NCBI RefSeq assembly: GCF_018861905.1 | Contig: NZ_JAHLDU010000009.1 | Span: 124,001 to 188,000, forward strand | DNA: 64,000 nt | Direction of reading: 5' to 3' | Source: Clostridium sp. DSM 17811 | GTDB lineage: Bacteria > Bacillota > Clostridia > Clostridiales > Clostridiaceae | Shown here: one piece after another, positions 45,978-56,911 of the stretch | Numbering within the stretch: position 1 is the first letter of the stretch | Layout: every line of letters begins with the position of its first letter | Translations under genes and position numbers: made by a program | The notes under the pieces: generated by a model | Database searches by the model: none | Told to the model about the DNA's origin: nothing | The model's input: the letters and a program-made list of their open reading frames with translations, nothing else

Positions 45978-46964
45978 ATGATGAACACAAAAATTAATGG
46001 TAAAAAACAAAACAAAGGTATAATGAGCATTATTGAAAATAGTCTTTTTGGAGTATTTCTTGCATTTGTTTTTTTAGTTGTGATAATGTCAGTACTTTCT
46101 CCAAGTTTTTTATCTTCACAAAATATATTTAATATATTACAGCAAATTGCAGGAATAGGTATTATATCTGTAGGAATGACATTTGTCATCCTTTTAGGTG
46201 GTATTGATTTATCTGTAGGATCTATAGTTGCATTTACTGGTCTTGTAATGGCACTTGCCATGAAGGCAAATGTACCAGTTGGGTTAGCTATACTAATAGG
46301 ACTAGTACTCGGTGGTCTAATTGGTTGTTTAAATGGAGTATTAATTGCTAAATTAAAAATACAACCATTTATTGCCACCCTTGGAACAATGACAATTGCA
46401 AGAGGTCTTGCTTATACCATTACGAATGGACAACCTGTTTACTCATTCTCGAAGAGTTTTAAAGGAATATCAGGTTTTATTGGTTTTGTACCAAAACCAG
46501 CAATTGTAATGTTGATAATATTTGCTTTAGGATATTATGTACTTACTTATACTAAGTTTGGAAGATATGTATATGCTACTGGTGGAAACAAAGTAGCTAG
46601 TAAACTTTCCGGTATAAATGTATTTAAATTAGAAATACTAGTTTACACAATATCAGGAATATGTTGCTCTATTGCTGCAATTTTGCTAACATCAAGACTT
46701 GATTCAGCAGTCCCTGTCGCAGGTAATGGGAATGAACTTGATGCAATAGCAGCTGTTGCTATTGGTGGAACCAGCATGACCGGTGGAGAAGGTCGTATTC
46801 AAGGTACGCTAATTGGAGCTTTGATTATGGGAGTTATAGCCAATGGAATGAACTTGCTAAATATACAACAAGGTCCTCAGTTATTTACTAAAGGTGCAAT
46901 AATTATATTAGCTGTTACCATTGATTTAATTAGAAAAAACGGTAAAAAAAAGCTAACAGCATAA
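45978..46964 (+). CDS. CUT2 sugar ABC importer permease (RbsC/AraH type)
   Basis: A 328-residue permease with eight to ten predicted membrane helices and the family blocks GMTFVILLGGIDLSVGSIVAFTG (~63-85), PFIATLGTMTIARGLAYTITNGQP and AIGGTSMTGGEGRIQGTLIGAL. It starts 1 bp after the ATPase stop, with GGAGGT in the ATPase end, so translation is coupled. One gene suffices for a homodimeric pore. The operon ends in the second copy of the 50-bp repeated hairpin. Confidence 0.95.
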   Translation: MMNTKINGKKQNKGIMSIIENSLFGVFLAFVFLVVIMSVLSPSFLSSQNIFNILQQIAGIGIISVGMTFVILLGGIDLSVGSIVAFTGLVMALAMKANVPVGLAILIGLVLGGLIGCLNGVLIAKLKIQPFIATLGTMTIARGLAYTITNGQPVYSFSKSFKGISGFIGFVPKPAIVMLIIFALGYYVLTYTKFGRYVYATGGNKVASKLSGINVFKLEILVYTISGICCSIAAILLTSRLDSAVPVAGNGNELDAIAAVAIGGTSMTGGEGRIQGTLIGALIMGVIANGMNLLNIQQGPQLFTKGAIIILAVTIDLIRKNGKKKLTA

Positions 46965-46975
46965 AAAATAATGTA

Positions 46976-47025
46976 AAATAACCTATAGAATAGACATTAT
47001 AAACTCTACCTATAGGCTATTTTAT
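46976..47025. terminator. 50-bp repeated hairpin, copy 2
   Basis: AAAATAACCTATAG pairs with CTATAGGCTATTTT with one mismatch. It is 46/50 identical to the hairpin at 41101-41150, in the same orientation, and ends the CUT2 operon. Confidence 0.85.
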
Positions 47026-47053
47026 ATTATTGGATTTATATTCATATTTAATT

Positions 47054-47152
47054 AAAGGGGAACTCCAAATAAGAAACGTAGAAACTATTTAAATTTGTTT
47101 GGAATTACTTAGCGAAGTGAAACGCAATTGTAATAATATATACTGCCCCTTT
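47054..47152. repeat. Truncated member of the fold-back repeat family
   Basis: Bounded by AAAGGGG and CCCCTTT. The right arm GAATTACTTAGCGAAGTGAA followed by AATATATACT matches the right arms of the elements at 49090-49321 and 50509-50739; most of the left arm is missing. It abuts the pepF stop codon. Confidence 0.6.
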
Positions 47153-47153
47153 G

Positions 47154-48953
47154 CTACAGTTCTTTCTCGAGCATCACTAATAATTCATCAAATCTTTTTA
47201 TAGTATCTTCTAAAGGTTTTGGTGATGACATATCTACACCTGCTTTTTTAAGTATATTTATTGGATAATCACTTCCACCACTCTTTAAGAATCCTATATA
47301 TCTTTCTACAGCACTTGCTCCCTCGTTAGTTATCATTTTACTGAAAGAATTAGCAGCTGCAAAACCTGTAGTATATTGGTATACATAAAAATCATTATAA
47401 AAATGAGGAATTCTTGACCATTCCATATCTATTCCTGCATCTACTACCATATCAGGTCCAAAATATTTCACATTTAAATCATGATAAATTTTACATAAGT
47501 CCTCTGGTGATAACGGATTACCCTGTTCAATTTTTTCATGCGTTACCTTTTCGAATTCTGCAAACATGCACTGTCTAAATACTGTAGTTCTTATTCCCTC
47601 TAATTGTTGATTTATTAGGAATAATTTCTTTTTCTTATCATTCTCATTTTTAATTTGATAATCTATTAATAAACATTCATTAGTTATAGATGCAACTTCT
47701 GCGCAAAATAACTCATACCCTGAATATATGTATGGTTGAGTTTTTCTTGAATAATATGAATGAATAGAGTGTCCCATTTCGTGAACAAGCGTAGATACAT
47801 CATTTAATTGATAATTATAATTCAAAAGCACATATGGCATACTATCAAAACAGCCCCAAGAATATGCTCCAGATCGTTTACCTTTATTTTGGAATACATC
47901 TACCCATCCCTCATTAATACCTTCTTTGAAGATGCCTAAATACTCTTGTCCTAGTGGCTTAATACCCTCGAGTGCTATTTTAACTGCATCTTCATATTCA
48001 ATATGATTTTCCTCTGCATCAATTATAGGCACATATAAATCGTACATATGCATTTCATCAAGCCCCAGAAGCTTCTTCTTAATGCTTACATACCTATGAA
48101 GTGATGATAAGTTTTTATTTATAGTATCAACTACATTATCATAAACCTTTACTGGAATATTATTAGGTTTTAAAGAACTTTCAAGTGCACAGGAATAATT
48201 TCTTGTTTTTGCATTAAATATAAAGTTCTTTATCGAAGATGTTAAAGATGCTGTTAAAGTATTACTAAATCCTTTATATGTTGAAAATAACGTTTCAAAA
48301 GCATCTTTTCTTACTCTTCTATCCTTTGATTTTATAAAATTGCTATAGTTTCCTTCAGTTAATTCGACCTCATTACCCTTTTCATCCTTTATACACGGAA
48401 ATGTCATGTCTGCATTTGTAAGCATTCCAAATATGTTTCCTGGTGCACTTAAACAATCACTAACAGACGCCAAAAGTTTTTCTGCCTCTGCACTTAGTGT
48501 ATGATCCTTTTGATTTATAATATCCGCTAAATAAAATTCATATAGTTTAAGCTTTGGAAACTTAACTATTGCCTCATCAACTGCTCTCTCAGGTAATGAT
48601 AATAATTCAGGAATAAAAAATGCAGTTGCACTAGAAACTTCTGCGCCATAAGTATCGATCTTATTTTTTAGAACTTGAAATTCAGCCTTGCCTGTATCCT
48701 CATCTCCTCTTAAATGTGCATACACAAGCAATTTATCTAAGAGTCTTTCAATTTCTACGTTGCTTTCTAAAAATGATAGCAACTCCTCAGGGGTACCTAA
48801 TTTACCTGAGAATTTTTTCATACTTGGCACTTTAGCCCTTAGTATTTCAAAATCTTTTTCCCACTCCGCTGAATTCTCATATATCTTTTCAACATTCCAC
48901 TTATACTTGCTATCGACTTGATCTCTCGTTTTAAGTTTTTGTACTTCACTCAC
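47154..48953 (-). CDS. pepF: Oligoendopeptidase F (M3B metallopeptidase)
   Basis: A 599-residue cytoplasmic zinc peptidase that cleaves short oligopeptides, used in peptide nutrition or signal-peptide turnover. The zinc motif HEMGH is at 391-395, with the distal glutamate in ELFCAEVASITNE about 25 residues on. The N-terminal PepF lid (DQVDSKYKWNVEKIYENSAEW, KLGTPEELLSFL) and the C-terminal YQYTTGFAAANSFSK and FLKSGGSDYPINILKKAGVD blocks are diagnostic. The start is a GTG at 48953 behind AGAGGGA. Fold-back repeats flank it on both sides. Confidence 0.96.
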   Translation of the reverse strand: MSEVQKLKTRDQVDSKYKWNVEKIYENSAEWEKDFEILRAKVPSMKKFSGKLGTPEELLSFLESNVEIERLLDKLLVYAHLRGDEDTGKAEFQVLKNKIDTYGAEVSSATAFFIPELLSLPERAVDEAIVKFPKLKLYEFYLADIINQKDHTLSAEAEKLLASVSDCLSAPGNIFGMLTNADMTFPCIKDEKGNEVELTEGNYSNFIKSKDRRVRKDAFETLFSTYKGFSNTLTASLTSSIKNFIFNAKTRNYSCALESSLKPNNIPVKVYDNVVDTINKNLSSLHRYVSIKKKLLGLDEMHMYDLYVPIIDAEENHIEYEDAVKIALEGIKPLGQEYLGIFKEGINEGWVDVFQNKGKRSGAYSWGCFDSMPYVLLNYNYQLNDVSTLVHEMGHSIHSYYSRKTQPYIYSGYELFCAEVASITNECLLIDYQIKNENDKKKKLFLINQQLEGIRTTVFRQCMFAEFEKVTHEKIEQGNPLSPEDLCKIYHDLNVKYFGPDMVVDAGIDMEWSRIPHFYNDFYVYQYTTGFAAANSFSKMITNEGASAVERYIGFLKSGGSDYPINILKKAGVDMSSPKPLEDTIKRFDELLVMLEKEL

Positions 48954-49089
48954 TAAAATTTCCCTCTTTCATTTTTTGAATTTAAAATCAACTTTGCTAG
49001 ATTAATCTACATAGAATAGAAAACAACATAATATATTTATATTATCCTATATTTGAAAAAATAACCATACACTAATAAACTATACTCCC

Positions 49090-49321
49090 TTTTTTATAGA
49101 TTATGCTAACAAAAGTATATATTGCGTAGAATGCATTTGAACTAGCTTTAGTAATTCCTAATTTATTTTATTTATAGGTGCGTTAATAAAAGTACATGTT
49201 TGAGCGCATGCGAGTTTGTACTTTTTAGCAACTGTACATAAAATAAATTATAGAATTACTTAGCGAAGTGAAAGCATTCCTAGTAATATATACTTTAGCT
49301 TATGGCATAATCTATGAAAAG
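49090..49321. mobile_element. Fold-back (MITE-like) element A, ~230 bp
   Basis: The whole segment is an imperfect hairpin. Outer ends are ATAGATTATGCTAACAAAAG (left) and, as reverse complement of the right, ATAGATTATGCCATAAGC. Inner arms AATTTATTTTATTTATAGGT and AATTTATTTTATGTACAGTT pair around a GCGCATGCG centre. It contains no coding frame. It is ~90% identical to the copy at 50509-50739 and occupies most of the lipase-pepF gap. Confidence 0.75.
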
Positions 49322-49348
49322 GTACTTATATTATGGGATTGATATACA

Positions 49349-50275
49349 TTAAACATGTGCATTAATCCATTTTATTATATCAGTAGTTACTTCATCTTTA
49401 TTGATTTCATGAAGCATTTCATGGCGTCCATCTTTATAAAGTTTATAAGTCAGATCCTTAACTCCATGTTTCTCATAAGTCTTAACAAGTTTTAAATTAC
49501 CTTTCCCATTTTTTCCTACAGGATCCTTATCTCCTCCAAAAATATAGATAGGTAAATTATTAGGAATGTTTTTTATTTCCTCTGCATCTTCTACACTCTT
49601 AAGTCCACTTAAAAAATCATAGAAAAAGCCCGCCGTAAAAACCGCCCCACAATATGGATTTTCTATATATTTATCCACTTCTTTATTATCTCGACTTAGC
49701 CAATCAAAGAGTGTTCTATTTGGTTTAAAAAAATTATTATTACTTCCAAAAATCAATTTATTTAAATTAATACTTTTAGCATTTCTTCCCTTTCTTATAA
49801 TCTCTACTTTTGATGCTATTCTTCCTATATCAACAATAATTCCCCGCTTGCCGCAAGTCCCTGTAAGAATAACACCTTTTAATTCACTTCCATATAAACA
49901 AATATATCTTTGTGTTAAGAAGGATCCCATACTATGCCCAAATAAAAATATAGGTAACGTCATATTTTCTTCTTTAATAATATTATTTAGTCTATGCATG
50001 TCCTCAACCATTGAATTAAAGCCATCCTCACCTAATTCTCCTAAAGTCTCTATTTTCCCTGCAGTTTCCCCATGACCCCTATGATCATTAGCATAAACAA
50101 CAAATCCATTTTTTGTTAGATTGTTTGCAAAATCTTCATACCTAGATGCTGTCTCCGCCATTCCATGTGCTAATTGAACCACACCCTTAACCTGCATATC
50201 CACATTCGGCATCCATTTGTATACAAATATTTCTAAACCATCCTTACCCTTAAACGTAAAACTTTCTGCTATCAT
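49349..50275 (-). CDS. Alpha/beta hydrolase, monoacylglycerol-lipase/lysophospholipase-like
   Basis: A 308-residue serine hydrolase of the Hydrolase_4/serine aminopeptidase S33 group. The nucleophile elbow is GHSMGS (S115), the acid is in IYIFGGDKDPVG (~D256) and the histidine in KDGRHEMLHEI (~287). VQLAHGMAETASRYEDFA (~33-50) with the HG oxyanion motif and YANDHRGHGETAG (~61-73) are typical of lysophospholipase L2/monoglyceride lipases. GGGGGAGA precedes the ATG. It has no signal peptide, so it acts in the cytoplasm. The gene is bracketed by two same-orientation fold-back elements. Confidence 0.9.
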   Translation of the reverse strand: MIAESFTFKGKDGLEIFVYKWMPNVDMQVKGVVQLAHGMAETASRYEDFANNLTKNGFVVYANDHRGHGETAGKIETLGELGEDGFNSMVEDMHRLNNIIKEENMTLPIFLFGHSMGSFLTQRYICLYGSELKGVILTGTCGKRGIIVDIGRIASKVEIIRKGRNAKSINLNKLIFGSNNNFFKPNRTLFDWLSRDNKEVDKYIENPYCGAVFTAGFFYDFLSGLKSVEDAEEIKNIPNNLPIYIFGGDKDPVGKNGKGNLKLVKTYEKHGVKDLTYKLYKDGRHEMLHEINKDEVTTDIIKWINAHV

Positions 50276-50326
50276 ACTCTCCCCCCTGTTATTTTATTCT
50301 TACATTTAATAATATTTTTATGTTGA

Positions 50327-50506
50327 GAAATAACTCAGCGAAGTTAAAGTTACTTTTTCTTAGATTATGCTAACAAAAGTATATATAACATAGAATGAAT
50401 TTGAACTAAACTTAGTAATTCTTAATTTATTTTATTTACGGATACACGAAAGAAAATACATATTTAAGCAAGCTCAAGTTTGTATTTTTAATAGTTATAC
50501 ATAATG
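50327..50506. repeat. Degraded fold-back element (left half plus stray right-arm piece)
   Basis: CTTAGATTATGCTAACAAAA (from 50359) begins a copy matching the first ~150 bp of element A, up to ATAGTTATACATAATG, where it is interrupted by the intact copy B. A stray right-arm fragment AACTCAGCGAAGTTAAAG lies just before it (50332-50349). Confidence 0.6.
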
Positions 50507-50508
50507 TC

Positions 50509-50739
50509 CTTTTTCTTAGATTATGCTAACAAAAGTATATGTTGTGTAGAATGCATTTGAACTAGCCTAGTAATTCTTAATTTATTTTATTTACAGATGC
50601 GTTAATAAAAGTACATGTTTGAGCGCATGCGAGTTTGTACTTTTTAGCAACTGTAAATAAAATAAATTTTAGAATTACTTAGCGAAGTGAAAGCATTGGA
50701 GCAATATATGCTTTTAGTTATAGCATAATCTATGAAAAA
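50509..50739. mobile_element. Fold-back (MITE-like) element B, ~230 bp
   Basis: A full-length copy of element A (about 90% identical by eye), same orientation, with terminal TTAGATTATGCTAACAAAAG and GCATAATCTATGAAAA. It directly follows the truncated copy, suggesting one element inserted next to or into another. No coding capacity. Confidence 0.75.
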
Positions 50740-50772
50740 CTACTTATCTCGTATTATACTTTTAAATACAAA

Positions 50773-50833
50773 AAAGCCACACTAATTAAATCTACTGCTT
50801 AATAGACTTGATAGTGTGGCTCTCATTTTTTTT
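50773..50833. terminator. Terminator downstream of the small hypothetical gene
   Basis: AGCCACACTA pairs with TAGTGTGGCT around a ~27-nt loop containing CTACT..AATAG inner pairing. T-rich runs are on both sides. Confidence 0.8.
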
Positions 50834-50961
50834 AGCCATATTTCATGTTTCATATTTACTCTCAATAAAATTATATCACTAAAATACACATTTGAAAAGT
50901 AATATTACACAATTCTGAAAATTAATATTACATTAAACTATCTTTTTAAACATATTCATCC

Positions 50962-51324
50962 TTATTTCTCTAATACCTTATATTCAACCTCTATATATTT
51001 ATCCTCATCATAAAATTCATCAGATTGTCCATAAATCTTAACGTTTGTATTTGTCGCATTTTCAGCAATATATTTTGCAGTATGCACCGTAACATCAATG
51101 GTCTTATCTATTAGAACAGCTGTTACTGCTCCTGCTATTTTTGAAGTTTTTGAAGCTACCCTACCAAGTATAACACTATACTTCTTCGTATTTTTAGCCA
51201 ATTTATCCTTACCTGAAATTCCTGCAATAGACGATATGACATTCCCTGTTAGTTCAATACCCAATTCTGCAGTATTACCAACTAATTTTGAAGCATCATA
51301 TACCGCTTTCCCAATAATTGTCAT
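50962..51324 (-). CDS. Small hypothetical protein
   Basis: A 120-residue protein I do not recognise. Residues ~1-85 are alanine/isoleucine/glycine-rich with amphipathic helix character (AVYDASKLVGNTAELGIELTG, ASKTSKIAGAVTAVLIDKTID), with no clear membrane segment of full length. The tail is acidic and tyrosine-rich (DEFYDEDKYIEVEYKVLEK). The start is the ATG at 51324, behind GGTGTGGTG; a GTG at 51336 overlaps that site. It is divergent from the flavin reductase-like gene and monocistronic. Confidence 0.65.
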   Translation of the reverse strand: MTIIGKAVYDASKLVGNTAELGIELTGNVISSIAGISGKDKLAKNTKKYSVILGRVASKTSKIAGAVTAVLIDKTIDVTVHTAKYIAENATNTNVKIYGQSDEFYDEDKYIEVEYKVLEK

Positions 51325-51535
51325 AATAATCACCACACCTATATTAATACTCTTATAATCATTATACCATATTATTATAAAATTATTACTAATGAATTTG
51401 GTAAAAATTATAAAGTCTTTTTAGCAAACATTCAAGACTGTATAAATCTTTTAAGATATTGTATAATATATAATGTTATATAAAAACAAGAGACATACCT
51501 TATAATGTATGTTAAAAATATAGAGGTGAAAATAC

Positions 51536-52138
51536 ATGATAAAAACCATATTTAAAGGTAGCGCAATGTTAAATCCCGTTCCTGTAGTATTAATTACATC
51601 AAAAAATAAAGAAGGTAAAATAAATGTTTTTACAGTAGCATGGATAGGAATGGCTTGTACAAAACCGCCAATGATAACTGTAGCTATAAGACCTGAGAGA
51701 CTTTCCTATGATTACATAAAAGAAAGTGGTGACTTTGTAGTAAATCTACCTACATCAAAAATGACTCGTGAAGTTGATTATTGCGGAGTGCGTTCTGGTA
51801 AACAAGTAGATAAGATTCATGAGATGAACTTTAAAATGGACAACGCAAAAGATGTCATAGCACCAATAATATCTGACTGCCCTATATCTTTAGAGTGCAA
51901 AGTTAAAAGCATTACCCCTTTAGGTACACATGATTTGTTTTTAGCTGAAATAGTAAATACTCATGTTGATAATACTTTAATAGATGATCTTGGAAAAATA
52001 CACTTTGAAATGGCAGATCTCATTACTTATTCTCATGGGGAATATTTTAGTGTTAATTCTAAACCTTTAGGTAAATTCGGTTACTCAGTTCAGAAAAAAA
52101 CAAAACCAAAGAAAAGTAAACATAAAAATAAAGCCTGA
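51536..52138 (+). CDS. Flavin reductase-like FMN-binding protein
   Basis: A 200-residue split-barrel FMN-binding protein of the flavin reductase/DIM6-NTAB family. Characteristic blocks are NPVPVVLITSKNKEGKINVFTVAW (~13-36), KPPMITVAIRPERLSYDYIKESGDFVVNLP (~44-73) and PISLECKVKSI. The C-terminal tail is very lysine-rich (KKTKPKKSKHKNKA). Members reduce flavins or serve as electron carriers such as clostridial flavoredoxins; the partner cannot be told. GAGGTG precedes the ATG. The stop codon lies within the terminator stem. Confidence 0.88.
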   Translation: MIKTIFKGSAMLNPVPVVLITSKNKEGKINVFTVAWIGMACTKPPMITVAIRPERLSYDYIKESGDFVVNLPTSKMTREVDYCGVRSGKQVDKIHEMNFKMDNAKDVIAPIISDCPISLECKVKSITPLGTHDLFLAEIVNTHVDNTLIDDLGKIHFEMADLITYSHGEYFSVNSKPLGKFGYSVQKKTKPKKSKHKNKA

Positions 52139-52157
52139 TTTCTCAGACTTTATTTTT
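52124..52157. terminator. Terminator overlapping the end of the flavin reductase-like gene
   Basis: AAAAATAAAGCCTGA pairs with TCAGACTTTATTTTT around TTTC. T-rich on the plus side, and it also faces the end of the convergent SPFH gene. Confidence 0.75.
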
Positions 52158-52174
52158 ATATCTATTTTTATTCA

Positions 52175-53182
52175 TTATTTATTTGGTATTGATTTGTTTG
52201 GTATCGCTTTGTTTTGTATTTCTTTAGTAGGTATTGCTTTATTTTCAGATTTCTTATCCATTCTTAACATTTCGCCTATTGCTGATATACTACCAAAACT
52301 TGATAATATTTCATTTGGAAGTATAAGCTTATTAGCTGGATTTTTAGACATTTCTGTAAGAGCTTCTATCTGTTTTAATGCTATTACAGTTTCATTTGTA
52401 CCTGACTCAATTATTGCTGTATTTACTTTTCTTATAGCACCTGCTTCTGCAATTGCAATGGTCTCTATAGCCCTTGCTTTACCTTCTGCTTCTAAAAGTT
52501 GTGATTCTTTAAGTCCTTCCGCACGTCTAATATTTGCTTGCTTTTCAGCTTCAGCATTTAATATTTGAGCTTGCTTATGTCCCTCTGCCCTTTCAATTTG
52601 GCTTTGTTTTTCGCCTTCTGCTGTAAGAATAAACGCTCTCTTATCTCTCTCTGCTCTCATTTGTTTTTCCATAGCTTGTTGAATCTCACTTGGTGGAACA
52701 ATGTTTTTAATTTCTACAGATAAAATCTTTATTCCATAAGCATCTGTAATTTCATCAATTATTTCAAGAAGCTTAGAATTTATTCTATCTCTTCCTGATA
52801 ATACATCATCTAATGTCATGTCTCCAACGATATTTCTCATATTAGTAATAGTTGAATACACAATACCTGATTTATAATCCTCAATATTATACACTGCATC
52901 TCTTGAATTAATAACTTTATAAAATATAACATTATCAATTGATATATTTACATTATCTTTAGTTATAACATTCTGTGGTTGTATGTCGAGTATTTGTTGC
53001 TTAGTAGAAATTTTTCTTCTAACGAAATCTGCAAATACAATTGTAAAATGCCAACCTGGCTCTAATATCCTATGAAACTGACCAAATCTTTCTATTAGAA
53101 CTACATACCCAGTATTAACAATCTTAATAGATGTTAAAATCATAACGACAATTAGTAACAATAAAATCAAACCTATAATCAT
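52175..53182 (-). CDS. SPFH/band-7 membrane protein (stomatin/QmcA-like)
   Basis: A 335-residue protein with one N-terminal membrane helix (IIGLILLLLIVVMILTSIKIV), an SPFH domain (~25-190: GYVVLIERFGQFHRILEPGWHF, TKDNVNISIDNVIFYKV) and a long charged coiled coil (~190-265; repeated AEGEKQ/AEAEKQ heptad-like units). The tail has a short tandem repeat of NKAIP-type units (KAIPTKE, KAIPNKS, IPNK). SPFH proteins oligomerise and organise membrane microdomains. It is encoded 30 bp after an NfeD gene, the classic stomatin-NfeD pairing. AGGAGG precedes the ATG. Confidence 0.93.
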   Translation of the reverse strand: MIIGLILLLLIVVMILTSIKIVNTGYVVLIERFGQFHRILEPGWHFTIVFADFVRRKISTKQQILDIQPQNVITKDNVNISIDNVIFYKVINSRDAVYNIEDYKSGIVYSTITNMRNIVGDMTLDDVLSGRDRINSKLLEIIDEITDAYGIKILSVEIKNIVPPSEIQQAMEKQMRAERDKRAFILTAEGEKQSQIERAEGHKQAQILNAEAEKQANIRRAEGLKESQLLEAEGKARAIETIAIAEAGAIRKVNTAIIESGTNETVIALKQIEALTEMSKNPANKLILPNEILSSFGSISAIGEMLRMDKKSENKAIPTKEIQNKAIPNKSIPNK

Positions 53183-53212
53183 AATAAATTCCTCCTCAAA
53201 TTTTAATATAAC

Positions 53213-53641
53213 TTATACTTTAGATATTAATAATTTATTTCCTTCAATACCAGTAACTTGAACTAAGTCACCTTTTTTCAAAGGTTCTCCAACATTTTTA
53301 ACGGTCCAATAAATTCCTTGAAACTTAACATTTCCTTTTTCATCAATATCTTTTGTTAGTGTAAATTCTTGTCCCACATACCCTTCTTCCATAGTCAAAG
53401 TTTTTTTCACAGTTTTTTTTATGGTTTTCTTAACTATAGGATAACCTATAGACATAACCACTCCACTAACTGCTACAAAAACAATTATTTGCACAATTAT
53501 TGGTGCATCGAGTCCAATAGAAAGAATTGCTCCGAGTGCTCCTACAGCAAACCATACAAACATAAAACTACTAGTTGTAATATCAATGGCTAATGCCACC
53601 ACTGCCACAACTATCCAAAATATCATCGGCGTCCAGCTCAT
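53213..53641 (-). CDS. Short NfeD-family membrane protein
   Basis: A 142-residue NfeD (truncated, NfeD1b type). There are two to three membrane helices in residues ~5-75 (IFWIVVAVVALAIDITT, VQIIVFVAVSGVVMSIGYPIV), a basic linker (KKTIKKTVKKT) and a C-terminal OB-fold (YVGQEFTLTKDIDEKGNVKFQGIYWTVKN, KGDLVQVTGIEGNKLLI). The long form's ClpP-like protease domain is absent. It is first in a two-gene operon with the SPFH protein and likely binds it at the membrane. Confidence 0.93.
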   Translation of the reverse strand: MSWTPMIFWIVVAVVALAIDITTSSFMFVWFAVGALGAILSIGLDAPIIVQIIVFVAVSGVVMSIGYPIVKKTIKKTVKKTLTMEEGYVGQEFTLTKDIDEKGNVKFQGIYWTVKNVGEPLKKGDLVQVTGIEGNKLLISKV

Positions 53642-54147
53642 ATTGTACCCCCTTAAAATCTAAAATATTATTAACTTTAACAGCTTATGTCATTATTAAT
53701 CTATATCACAATTATATAACTTTTATGAATTTTATAATACAACCTTATTATGTTTTTAAAGCAATATTATTACTATAGATTATTTATGAATAATATTCAT
53801 CTTTTATAAACTAAATAAATGAATTTTTTATAATGCTATAATTACATTATATTGTATATACTAAACTTTATAAAGTTTTATTTTAATACATTGTACATTT
53901 CCATGTCCATTTCTGGTCTTTTATTGCCATCTACCCTATATTTACTCTTATTTGCTCGATAATACGTTTCATGGTAATTTTTATTATAATTGTAAATAGT
54001 TACTAACAATTTAATCATTGGTAAAATAATCATTGACCTTCCTACTAATGTATTCAAAATAATGATATAATTCTACTAAATATTTGTTATATAAAGCAAT
54101 ATTTGCATATACTATATTTGAAAACCAAAGAAAGGTCGTGAATTAGT
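53642..54147. other. 506-bp AT-rich gap between nfeD and nadE
   Basis: Besides a probable small gene on the minus strand (53878-54033) I see only AT-rich DNA and presumed promoters. ACTTTATAAAGTTTTA near 53864-53880 is a small palindrome. Confidence 0.4.
53878..54033 (-). CDS. Probable 51-residue small membrane protein
   Basis: An ATG at 54033 opens MIILPMIKLLVTIYNYNKNY, then HETYYRANKSKYRVDGNKRP and EMDMEMYNVLK before TAA. The N-terminus is hydrophobic, enough for one membrane helix if a few upstream codons (ILNTLVGRS, from a TTG at 54057) are included; the rest is polar and tyrosine-rich. AGGAAGG lies just before the ATG, a slightly close ribosome site. Protein-like composition in an otherwise AT-only gap supports coding. 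Family unknown; homology would settle both reality and start. Confidence 0.5.
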   Translation of the reverse strand: MIILPMIKLLVTIYNYNKNYHETYYRANKSKYRVDGNKRPEMDMEMYNVLK

Positions 54148-56058
54148 TTGAAAACTTCTTTTATAAAGGTTTCTGCTGCTTGTCCAATAGTAAATGTGGC
54201 AGATATAGAATTCAACTTAACTAACATACAAAAATGCATTACACAGGCTTACGCAGAAGGATCAAAATTTATAGTTTTTCCAGAACTTTGCATAACAGCT
54301 TATACCTGTGCAGACTTATTTATGCAACATCAATTAATTAAAAAATCCGAAGATGCCATTAAATCTCTATGTGAGTTTTCTGAAAACAAAGATATATTAA
54401 TTGCTGTGGGATCTCCTCTCTACTTTAATGATTGTCTATATAATTGCGCTTATATAATATTTAATGGAAAACTGTTGGGAATAGTACCAAAAAGCTATAT
54501 TCCTAATTACTCTGAGTTTTACGAGAAAAGATGGTTTGCAGAGGGCCTTGGCATAATAAACAAAACCGTAAATCTTTCTTTTGCAAGTGATATTCCTTTT
54601 GGGACGAACTTATTATTTACTTGCGACAATATTAAATTTGGTTTTGAAATTTGTGAAGATCTTTGGGTAACCATTCCTCCAAGCAGCTACTTGTCTCTTC
54701 AGGGTGCAAATATAATTGCTAACCTATCTGCATCTAATGAATTAGTTAGTAAAGCTGATTATAGAAAATCCTTAGTAACATCTCAAAGTGCAAGATGTAT
54801 GTGCTCTTATTTGTATGCATCATCTGGTGTTTTTGAATCTTCTACCGATTTAGTTTTCAGTGGTCATCTTTTAATTAGTGAAAATGGTTTATTATTAAAG
54901 GAAAATAATAGATTTCAAAGAGAAAACGAAGTTATCTCATCTATTATTGATATAAATAAGTTGAATAGTGAAAGAATGAAAAATACAAGTTTTAGAAATA
55001 CTAATTCCATATGTTCTTTTGAAGTAAAAGAAATATCTTTTCAATTTAAGGATATGGATTTTGGCATATTTGATAGGAACATTGATAAATATCCTTTTGT
55101 ACCTTCTAACCAATTTAAGCGTGAAGTACGCTGCGCAGAAATATTTAATATTCAATCTTCGGCTCTTGCTAAAAGATTTTCATACACTGGACTTAATAAA
55201 GCAATAGTTGGGATTTCTGGAGGACTTGATTCAACACTAGCACTACTTGTTATAGTTAAGACCTTTGATAAACTAAAAATACCATTAAAGAACATTATAA
55301 CTATAACTATGCCTGGTTTTGGGACTACAGATAGGACTTATTTGAATGCAATAAATCTATGCAAAAACTTAGGTACTGACCTTAGAGAAATTAATATAGT
55401 TGACGCATGTCTTTTGCATTTTAAAGATATAGGTCATCCAGTAGAGAAACATGATGTAACGTATGAGAATGTTCAAGCAAGAGAAAGAACTCAAATCCTT
55501 ATGGATCTTGCAAATAAGGAAGGTGGACTGCTAATAGGTACAGGCGATTTATCAGAACTTGCTTTAGGTTGGTGCACATATAATGGAGACCATATGTCTA
55601 TGTACTCTGTAAATTGTTCAATCCCTAAGACATTGGTGAGATATTTAGTCAAATATGTAGCAGATAAAGAATCCTCAAAACAAGTTACAGACATTCTTTT
55701 AGATATTCTTGACACCCCAGTAAGTCCTGAACTTATGCCTAAAGATAAAAGCGGGAAAATAACGCAAAAGACTGAAGACATAGTAGGACCATATGTACTT
55801 CATGACTTCTTTCTTTATTATTTTATGAAGCAAGGAGCAACCCCTGAAAAAATATTATTTTTAGCAAAGCAAGCATTTATTGGTGACTTTGAAGAAGTCG
55901 TAATAATTAAATGGTTCGATAAATTTATAAAGAGATTTTTCACTCAACAATTTAAACGTTCCGCACTGCCTGATGGTCCAAAAGTAGGAACAATAAGTGT
56001 TTCTCCAAGAGGTGATCTTAGAATGCCATCAGATGCTAGTTATAATTCTTTCCTTTAA
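54148..56058 (+). CDS. nadE: Glutamine-dependent NAD+ synthetase
   Basis: A 636-residue two-domain enzyme converting nicotinate adenine dinucleotide to NAD+ with ATP and glutamine. The N-terminal nitrilase-type glutaminase has the Glu-Lys-Cys triad in VFPELCITAY (E46), VPKSYIPNY (K115) and FGFEICEDLW (C169). The C-terminal synthetase has the PP-loop SGGLDS (357-362) and GTGDLSELALGWCTYNGDHMSMY. Length matches the long clostridial NadE. The start is a TTG at 54148 behind AAAGAAAGGTCG; an upstream GTG runs into a stop. A large fold-back element follows the gene. Confidence 0.96.
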   Translation: MKTSFIKVSAACPIVNVADIEFNLTNIQKCITQAYAEGSKFIVFPELCITAYTCADLFMQHQLIKKSEDAIKSLCEFSENKDILIAVGSPLYFNDCLYNCAYIIFNGKLLGIVPKSYIPNYSEFYEKRWFAEGLGIINKTVNLSFASDIPFGTNLLFTCDNIKFGFEICEDLWVTIPPSSYLSLQGANIIANLSASNELVSKADYRKSLVTSQSARCMCSYLYASSGVFESSTDLVFSGHLLISENGLLLKENNRFQRENEVISSIIDINKLNSERMKNTSFRNTNSICSFEVKEISFQFKDMDFGIFDRNIDKYPFVPSNQFKREVRCAEIFNIQSSALAKRFSYTGLNKAIVGISGGLDSTLALLVIVKTFDKLKIPLKNIITITMPGFGTTDRTYLNAINLCKNLGTDLREINIVDACLLHFKDIGHPVEKHDVTYENVQARERTQILMDLANKEGGLLIGTGDLSELALGWCTYNGDHMSMYSVNCSIPKTLVRYLVKYVADKESSKQVTDILLDILDTPVSPELMPKDKSGKITQKTEDIVGPYVLHDFFLYYFMKQGATPEKILFLAKQAFIGDFEEVVIIKWFDKFIKRFFTQQFKRSALPDGPKVGTISVSPRGDLRMPSDASYNSFL

Positions 56059-56073
56059 TATCTATTCACACAC

Positions 56074-56491
56074 AGAAAAAAATATATATTACGTGTATTG
56101 AATCAAGCTTTAGAACTCCAAATTTACTTTTAATTGATTTTTGTTTTTTATCAAATTAATTAAAAATAAAGTTACTACTCAGGCATCATAAATTATGTGA
56201 AGGTATAAGAAAGCTGAAAGAATACGGGTATGAATTCCTCCGGAAGTAGCACCAAATAAGAAGAGCAGAAACAATTGAAATCCCATTTAAAGTTCTTCTT
56301 TTGCAAGTAAAAATTCTCGTAAGACTGCCACAGGCAGTCTAGCGAACCGGCGCACGCCGAATGTGAGAGTTAGAGAATTTTTATTTACAAAAGATTAGAA
56401 CTTCTTAATGGGATTTCACGTTTCAAACTCTTATTTGGTGCCACGCCGGAGAAATTCATGGATTGCAATACGCGTAATATATACTTTTTCA
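56074..56491. mobile_element. Fold-back (MITE-like) element E, ~418 bp
   Basis: Ends AAATATATATTACGTGTATTG and CAATACGCGTAATATATAC are inverted repeats. Further in, CTCCGG-x-AGTAGCACCAAATAAGA and TCTTATTTGGTGCCACGCCGGAG pair, then AAATCCCATTTAA with TTAATGGGATTT, and GTAAAAATTCTC with GAGAATTTTTAT. The centre is GC-rich, with AGACTGCC-ACA-GGCAGTCT and GGCGCACGCC hairpins. The terminal motif AAAGTATATATT is shared with elements A and B. It supplies the stop codon of the yaaR-like gene. Confidence 0.7.
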
Positions 56492-56911
56492 CTTATATAT
56501 ATCAACGATTAACCCTGAAATTTCATCAATAGTATTTGCTACCTTAAGATTATCTTTTTCCTGACTAAGTAACATTTGAGTAAGTTCTTCAAGTTTAGCA
56601 TCTACAGTATCTACTGTTATAAAATATTGTGTTTGCCAAAAACTAATATCTTTTTTAACCTCGTACATATGTTTCAAAACAGACTCCAAGTATTCTTTAA
56701 TTAAATTTTTATATGCTTTAACATCAGCATAACATTTTGTAGTGCTTAACCTATTTCCTTTCTTTTTTATATCATCCATCATCTCCTTTAGTTGCTCTTC
56801 TGATTTATTATGCCTAGCAGAACTAAAGTTTTGAGAAAAATCCATTTTATTCTGAATAGGTTTTTTATCTGTTGAAATAGTCGAATTTCTTCTAGTTCTT
56901 GATATTTCCAT
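56489..56911 (-). CDS. YaaR-family (DUF327) protein
   Basis: A 140-residue, mostly helical cytoplasmic protein. After a disordered basic N-terminus (~1-35) the YaaR core follows: EEQLKEMMDDIKKKGNRLSTTKCYADVKAYKNLIKEYLESVL in successive pieces (~38-80), then TVDAKLEELTQMLLSQEKDNLKV and the family-typical ending EISGLIVDIYK. YaaR proteins are widespread in Firmicutes; function unsettled. GGAGGTG precedes the ATG. The TGA stop is contributed by the terminal repeat of fold-back element E, so the insertion lies exactly at the gene's end, possibly trimming it slightly. Confidence 0.85.
   Translation of the reverse strand: MEISRTRRNSTISTDKKPIQNKMDFSQNFSSARHNKSEEQLKEMMDDIKKKGNRLSTTKCYADVKAYKNLIKEYLESVLKHMYEVKKDISFWQTQYFITVDTVDAKLEELTQMLLSQEKDNLKVANTIDEISGLIVDIYK

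Follow-up and report, generated by a model that had tools for sequence, protein, structure and literature searches.

The window analysed here is a 64,000-nucleotide stretch on one contig (C9) of the genome of a psychrophilic Clostridium (5.19 Mb, 98 contigs), and its intergenic spaces hold several long palindromes, named A, B and E, which an earlier note took for a MITE-like family or for structured RNAs spread by another route. The question raised by the locus is whether such sequences are mobile DNA, functional RNA or hairpins that diversified in place at the ends of genes.

Two families of hairpin repeats

Element A (49090..49321, minus strand), a full-length A-type fold-back repeat, is predicted to form a single hairpin over its whole length at -83.4 kcal/mol (shuffle mean -42.3, z -9.7, equalled by 0/200 shuffles). 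The composite element E (56074..56491, minus strand; 56070-56500 folded) reached -149.7 against a shuffle mean of -77.3 (z -14.5, 0/100 shuffles equal), and these near full-length folds bear out the description of A and E as fold-backs. For B (50509..50739, minus strand), the second full-length A-type copy, the same description is supported by a long inverted repeat in self-comparison of the sequence and by a long hairpin within its own site, the shuffle comparisons being those of A and E. A and B are 91% identical and lie in the same orientation, in agreement with the earlier estimate of ~90%.

Between A and B lies an alpha/beta hydrolase gene (49349..50275, minus strand; Pfam Hydrolase_4, 2.4e-50), the four best named matches of which come from the cold-loving C. 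frigoris, Clostridium sp. CS001, C. lacusfryxellense and C. algoriphilum. Published abstracts likewise call this Clostridium group cold-loving. The 3' end of the gene abuts A, which is located 28 nt 3' of the hydrolase stop and whose minus strand is in sense with the gene. A 124-aa open frame (50962..51336, minus strand), to which Pfam assigns no family at E 1e-4, was taken as the sense-upstream gene of B, at a distance of ~220 nt.

Two further A-type pieces match A over less than the spans first given. The half copy placed at 50327-50506 matches A positions 1-152 at 78% over 50354..50504 (minus strand), and the preceding bases are unmatched; this half copy and B are probably units of a tandem duplication, and the same tandem pair is present in the near relative G001. 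The right-end fragment at 47054..47152 (minus strand) lies directly behind the stop codon (47154) of an oligopeptidase F gene (47154..48953, minus strand; Pfam Peptidase_M3, 6e-82), the 3' end of which abuts it, and matches A 164-205 at 88% over 47102-47144 (C9:171102-171144), while the remainder looks, by eye, like an arm of the E type.

Element E is located between convergent genes for NAD synthetase (54148..56058, plus strand; Pfam NAD_synthase and CN_hydrolase) and a DUF327 protein (56489..56911, minus strand; Pfam DUF327, 4.6e-41), the latter being its sense-upstream neighbour. Its description as a larger relative of A holds for the outer stem, of type AAAGTATATATTAC/GTAATATATACTTT, and for part of the arm (outer part read by eye), but these surround E-inner (56220..56466, minus strand), a ~240-bp hairpin that belongs to a separate dispersed family and carries two small GC hairpins at its tip.

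Neither family is single-copy or confined to the window. At least 150 bases of A are matched at 19 distinct places in its own genome, a manual count that includes A, B and the half copy and excludes reverse-strand echoes of the palindrome, and the E query gave 68 own-genome matches, echoes and pieces included. All 17/17 genus genomes, the own one among them, have A-type repeats, against 0/23 others of the family and order. E-inner was likewise found in 17/17 genus genomes, and three of the 23 others had one marginal match each (E 3e-4 to 6e-4), which we take as chance. A, B and E thus belong to two families, A-type and E-type, that are dispersed in the cold-loving Clostridium group, and with these copy counts the earlier view of a dispersed, non-coding fold-back family accumulating between genes, probably non-autonomous, is upheld. 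A and E had no match among plasmids or phages, nor two exact tip patterns among viral contigs, in searches from which records of the own or a very near genome were possibly excluded. Rfam gave no family at gathering score over the whole window, the two hits in 46900-56600 being both well below it, and the papers listed in literature searches gave no name for such repeats in this Clostridium group.

Position behind genes and changes in the arms

For a survey of genomic context, 52 distinct A-type copies were taken from fetched loci and reduced by their flanking sequence to 34 independent loci; matches shorter than ~170 bases, matches too near a locus end and duplicates were left out. E-type matches below 120 bases were left out of the orientation count, and those not spanning the module out of the wobble count described below. 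Orientation was called from open frames produced by a simple script, not from annotation, and frames overlapping an element were ignored. In all 50 callable copies of the 52, the gene next to the element on one fixed side points toward it; counted by independent loci, 32 of the 34 were callable and 32/32 are in sense behind a gene. The distance from the stop codon to the element at these 32 loci has a median of 18 nt (10th-90th percentile 6-50). Their gaps are codirectional in 15 cases, convergent in 17 and divergent in none, compared with 65 codirectional, 24 divergent and 21 convergent among gaps >60 bp in 188 kb of the genome's own sequence. Of the two genes at a convergent gap, the sense gene was also the closer in 15/17 cases. 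E-inner follows the same rule: 30/32 distinct copies are in sense, one is against (L023) and one was not callable (L014), in a manual count with orthologues kept in. Since this one-sense rule holds at A- and E-type copies, the minus strand of the window is the sense strand for its elements. A mere effect of the replication strand was rejected as the cause, since both A-type orientations occur on contig C9 and still follow the gene (informal check). The sense bias may reflect an asymmetric target at gene ends, for example a T-tract or terminator, or else a requirement for the tip sequence in the transcript.

A canonical terminator was detected between stop codon and A-type element in 2/50 copies, within 142 nt behind the element in 18/50 and on either side in 20/50, compared with 51/84 at control gene ends; taken by itself, the downstream side (18/50 vs 51/84) differs at p 0.007 with our home-made detector. 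An earlier detector, superseded because it overlooked a plain terminator by B, had given 5/50 vs 29/106 in controls. B itself lies behind what looks by eye like a separate terminator of its own. This indirect test weakly supports the idea that an A-type element often stands in for the terminator of its gene, and some copies perhaps serve as terminators.

The arms of A-type copies have changed in concert. In an alignment of 33 near full-length copies, in which 96.5% of cells pair and the tip sequences are conserved, 25/64 pairs change on both sides, whereas shuffles gave 10.4 +/- 1.9 (0/500 reach the observed value) and a control in which partners were slid gave 5 to 9. Compensatory changes, whose absence would have spoken against the earlier note, are thus plentiful, and they are what a structured RNA would be expected to show together with an excess of G.U pairs on the transcribed strand. 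A transcript tolerates G.U but not A.C, while DNA can pair in either strand without such a preference. We therefore counted both kinds of mismatch after dropping pairs without a Watson-Crick majority or with <75% Watson-Crick cells; the copies are related, so that cells are not independent. On these pairs, A-type copies have 48 G.U and 63 A.C cells (p 0.18, 52 rows), the 33-row A-type alignment has 32 and 36, and E-type copies have 22 and 20 (21 rows). Without the pair filter the A-type counts are 126 G.U and 117 A.C. An apparent excess in unfiltered E-type copies (94 vs 40) was discarded as an artefact, since pairs taken from the RNA fold of a single sequence can include G.U but not A.C, and it disappears on Watson-Crick-majority pairs. 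The covariation was thus found and the G.U excess was not, and strong covariation without an excess of G.U over A.C is no argument for a functional RNA. The pattern of the A- and E-type arms fits hairpin DNA, or homogenisation of the arms by template switching, which has been described for imperfect palindromes.

Hairpins at orthologous sites

The site of E, between the NAD synthetase and DUF327 genes, has a hairpin in 15/15 genomes in which both flanks were found (of 17). Its size ranges from 44 bp in G004, where the flanks are about 96% identical to those of the window, to ~420 bp in the window, which G003 resembles; four of the 15 sites (G007, G014, G015 and G016) have, by eye, a hairpin with a different outer stem. 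Short forms are widespread: exact 13-base inverted ends AAAGTATATATTA/TAATATATACTTT, 2-32 bases apart, occur in 17/17 genus genomes, and the reversed-pattern control gave 0. These forms span 30-58 bp and mostly consist, by eye, of an A-tract, a hairpin and a T-tract; the bases outside them vary from place to place, except in four of the 18 shown, which are one orthologous site.

Seven further sites were compared with G001, G004 and G003, with no counterpart extracted at one of them (L005). In this comparison, which was made without an outgroup, the same stem with its centre missing was found at L007 in G001, and at L008 and L010 in both G004 and G003. At the site of B, G004 has a version with the centre deleted. 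The gap at C9:103694 holds a 44-bp hairpin in the genome of the window and, in two near relatives, an A-type hairpin of ~186 bp (G001) and an unrelated hairpin (G004). At the site of A, an A-type copy is also present in L071 and L072 and a remnant (by eye) in L069. C. frigoris, considered as a carrier of the empty site for A, was rejected because an apparent remnant of the centre of A is kept there. Empty sites in relatives, to which the earlier note had tied the question of mobility, are thus a point half answered, because the compared sites mostly show shortened hairpins.

Hairpins also stand within hairpins. At L015, the tip of the E-type hairpin in G004 carries a further hairpin of ~46 bp that has a CCCAGAGARCKACCCAGAGG-type tail; this module is absent in G000 (the genome of the window) and G003. 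Tails of this type occur in 15/17 genomes at <=2 mismatches (control 0). Of 21 distinct occurrences in the fetched loci, 20 are placed, by eye, within E-type tips, where two spots recur. Many of the loci concerned had been fetched for their E match; in loci fetched by the tail pattern alone the proportion is 8/9 (by eye). The A- and E-type hairpins are thus nested and labile, and neither property, nor the fixed sense orientation, appears in the earlier note. A doubtful proposal is a transposition system that favours the tips of other hairpins as targets: one protein would read tip motifs common to A- and E-type hairpins (TGAGC and TAGCGA, by eye) and insert further DNA hairpins there, which would produce stacks of hairpins in hairpins at gene 3' ends, in sense with transcription.

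Several sites show further arrangements. At the E site of L162 (G005), another ~50-bp hairpin stands in an A-type tip after TTTGAGC, a spot like that of the E tip module. At the site shared by L197 (G004) and L020 (own genome), an E-type remnant in G004 separates two terminator-like hairpins that resemble each other; the second of these alone is present in the own sequence, and the first alone in G001 and G003. The site of A in G001 (L141) holds 757 bp, with no A-type match among the matches listed.

Mobility and related repeat systems

The A-type elements are much alike over their length and their flanks are not (34 flank-distinct loci among 52 copies), and copies alike at many unrelated loci mean that the sequence has been copied. 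We regard it as reasonably probable that A, B and E are copies of palindromic repeats that move or once moved, and that reached gene 3' ends in the form of hairpins. The basis of this reading is their dispersal in the 17 searched genus genomes, their sense orientation, the strand-symmetric covariation of their arms, the missing centres and the presence or absence of the tip hairpin. The moving form would be a single-stranded DNA hairpin handled by a host or transposon enzyme, as has been proposed for REPINs. After insertion, replication slippage might whittle away the centre and leave a short A-tract, hairpin and T-tract that could act as a bidirectional terminator. For a whole A-type element, the compared sites showed no clean virgin empty site and no intermediate of excision, and transposition of A is accordingly deduced from dispersal.

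Three other explanations have to be weighed against this one. In the first, the repeats function as structured RNAs or as 3'-UTR elements such as transcript stabilisers, which selection on the RNA fold maintains and which spread passively. This would account for the strict sense orientation close behind stops, where transcription is expected, and for the strong covariation and conserved tips; we consider it unlikely in view of the wobble test, the Rfam result over the window and the absence, in some species, of the hairpin centre including the tip at orthologous sites. The compensatory changes are strong, but the wobble test argues against selection on RNA as their cause. In the second, the repeats do not move: hairpins at gene ends change where they stand, through template switching and slippage, and local copies arise from duplication and gene conversion. 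This would fit the tandem copies in the window and in G001, the strand-symmetric arm changes and the one orthologous site at which all extractable genomes have a hairpin of very different size. This non-mobile explanation is quite unlikely given the flank-distinct loci with like elements, and it is also opposed by the tip module in G004 but not in two others at L015, although gene conversion from another E copy could have placed it there. It draws further support from the crowding of copies in four near-complete genomes, where, among the matches listed, 80% of near full-length A copies lie within 13-35% of the chromosome. With copies of ~150 bases or more and tandem neighbours counted singly, 0/5,000 random draws were as tight in G001 (n=21), G006 (n=21) and G015 (n=15), and P was 0.02 in G004 (n=9). 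The crowding suggests local spread, and it could reflect local duplication instead.

Improbable, in our judgement, is the remaining explanation, that a DDE transposase moves the repeats as plain MITEs through terminal inverted repeats such as AAAGTATATATTAC. It is suggested by the short forms, which have defined, exact inverted ends and differing sequence outside, but in the A-type elements the inverted repeat spans the whole element, and a fixed orientation to genes is unexpected for MITEs of such a transposase. No consistent target-site duplication was found by eye in the flanks of the 52 A-type copies, where old copies may have lost them. Nor was a longer element bounded by an inverted pair of these terminal repeats noticed by eye among 63 own-genome end sites at <=1 mismatch, part of which are chance, since the reversed control gave 22. 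Of the label MITE-like, the dispersed fold-backs stand; target-site duplications, a clean empty site for A and a transposase with these ends were not found.

Among known systems, REPs/REPINs and long stem-loop families come closest to the palindromic repeats proposed here; one such stem-loop family, ERIC, inserts at TA. The Bacillus cereus family bcr1 is, like the A/E family, a set of repeats in a Firmicute, and the two were set side by side by description only. REPINs are inverted REP doublets with compensatory changes in their arms (PMC3116915), and the likeness to REPINs, REPs and BIMEs extends to dispersed intergenic palindromes and single-strand hairpins. Like REPs, which favour positions downstream of coding regions, between codirectional or convergent genes (PMC3733652), the A-type loci lie in 15 codirectional, 17 convergent and 0 divergent gaps. 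In REPs the flanking gene often takes its stop codon from a GTAG end (PMC3733652), and a position close to stops in one direction is therefore not peculiar to the A/E family; G.T pairs in REP stems were taken by the authors of that study as a sign of transcription (PMC3733652). REPs are 20-40 bp long, single or in inverted doublets, and have a GTAG or CGTC tag at one end, whereas A-type copies are continuous imperfect hairpins of ~190-240 bp, and E is a composite of ~420, with A-type consensus ends TTTTCTTAG... / ...CTAAGAAAAA in which neither tag was recognised by eye. One orientation at all callable loci and nested hairpins further set the A-type apart. ERIC of E. coli is a 127-bp, repeated, intergenic element with one long stem-loop (PMC2267715), and it resembles A and E, as do YPAL and other long stem-loop families, by description rather than by sequence comparison; nesting, missing centres and strict sense orientation distinguish A and E. 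The insertion sequences IS1397, IS621 and ISKpn1 enter REP palindromes (PMC1525189), which parallels the entry of a mobile element into a repeated palindrome, except that here a ~46-bp hairpin without coding capacity enters, at two spots of the E tip. Given the differences in length, ends, strictness of direction and nesting, we place A and E among the palindromic repeats as a variant, and not with REPs or MITEs.

If this is correct, the A/E family represents a class of palindromic repeats with two marked traits, a single direction behind genes at callable loci and nesting at the tip. Nesting is absent from the descriptions of REPs and stem-loop families, as far as these were available to us, and the supply of stop codons by GTAG ends is a milder form of the directionality. 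The family also constitutes a caution for RNA discovery, as covariation alone would have classed it as a new structured RNA. Lastly, growth and decay in long palindromes become open to measurement where orthologous sites have hairpins of different size.

REPs and REPINs are associated with RAYT (TnpAREP) proteins, whereas no linked RAYT was found here, in the flanks of two RAYT-like genes and among the listed matches of eight PF01797 loci to A, B and E. The own genome has eight PF01797 matches, including Y1 proteins of 185 and 303 aa, and 0/8 lie on contig C9. Relatives of the 185-aa RAYT-like protein occur in 17/17 genus genomes and in 17/23 outside; they thus do not track the elements, and its distribution does not single the protein out as a partner. 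No element could be recognised next to either of the two RAYT-like genes, and among the matches listed one E-inner copy has an IS200-type gene (L132) close by. The gene for the 185-aa protein (L136:1471-2028) is flanked, by eye, by a direct repeat, CTGTCACTTGTCGAAA, and gene and repeat are possibly a mobile unit of their own.
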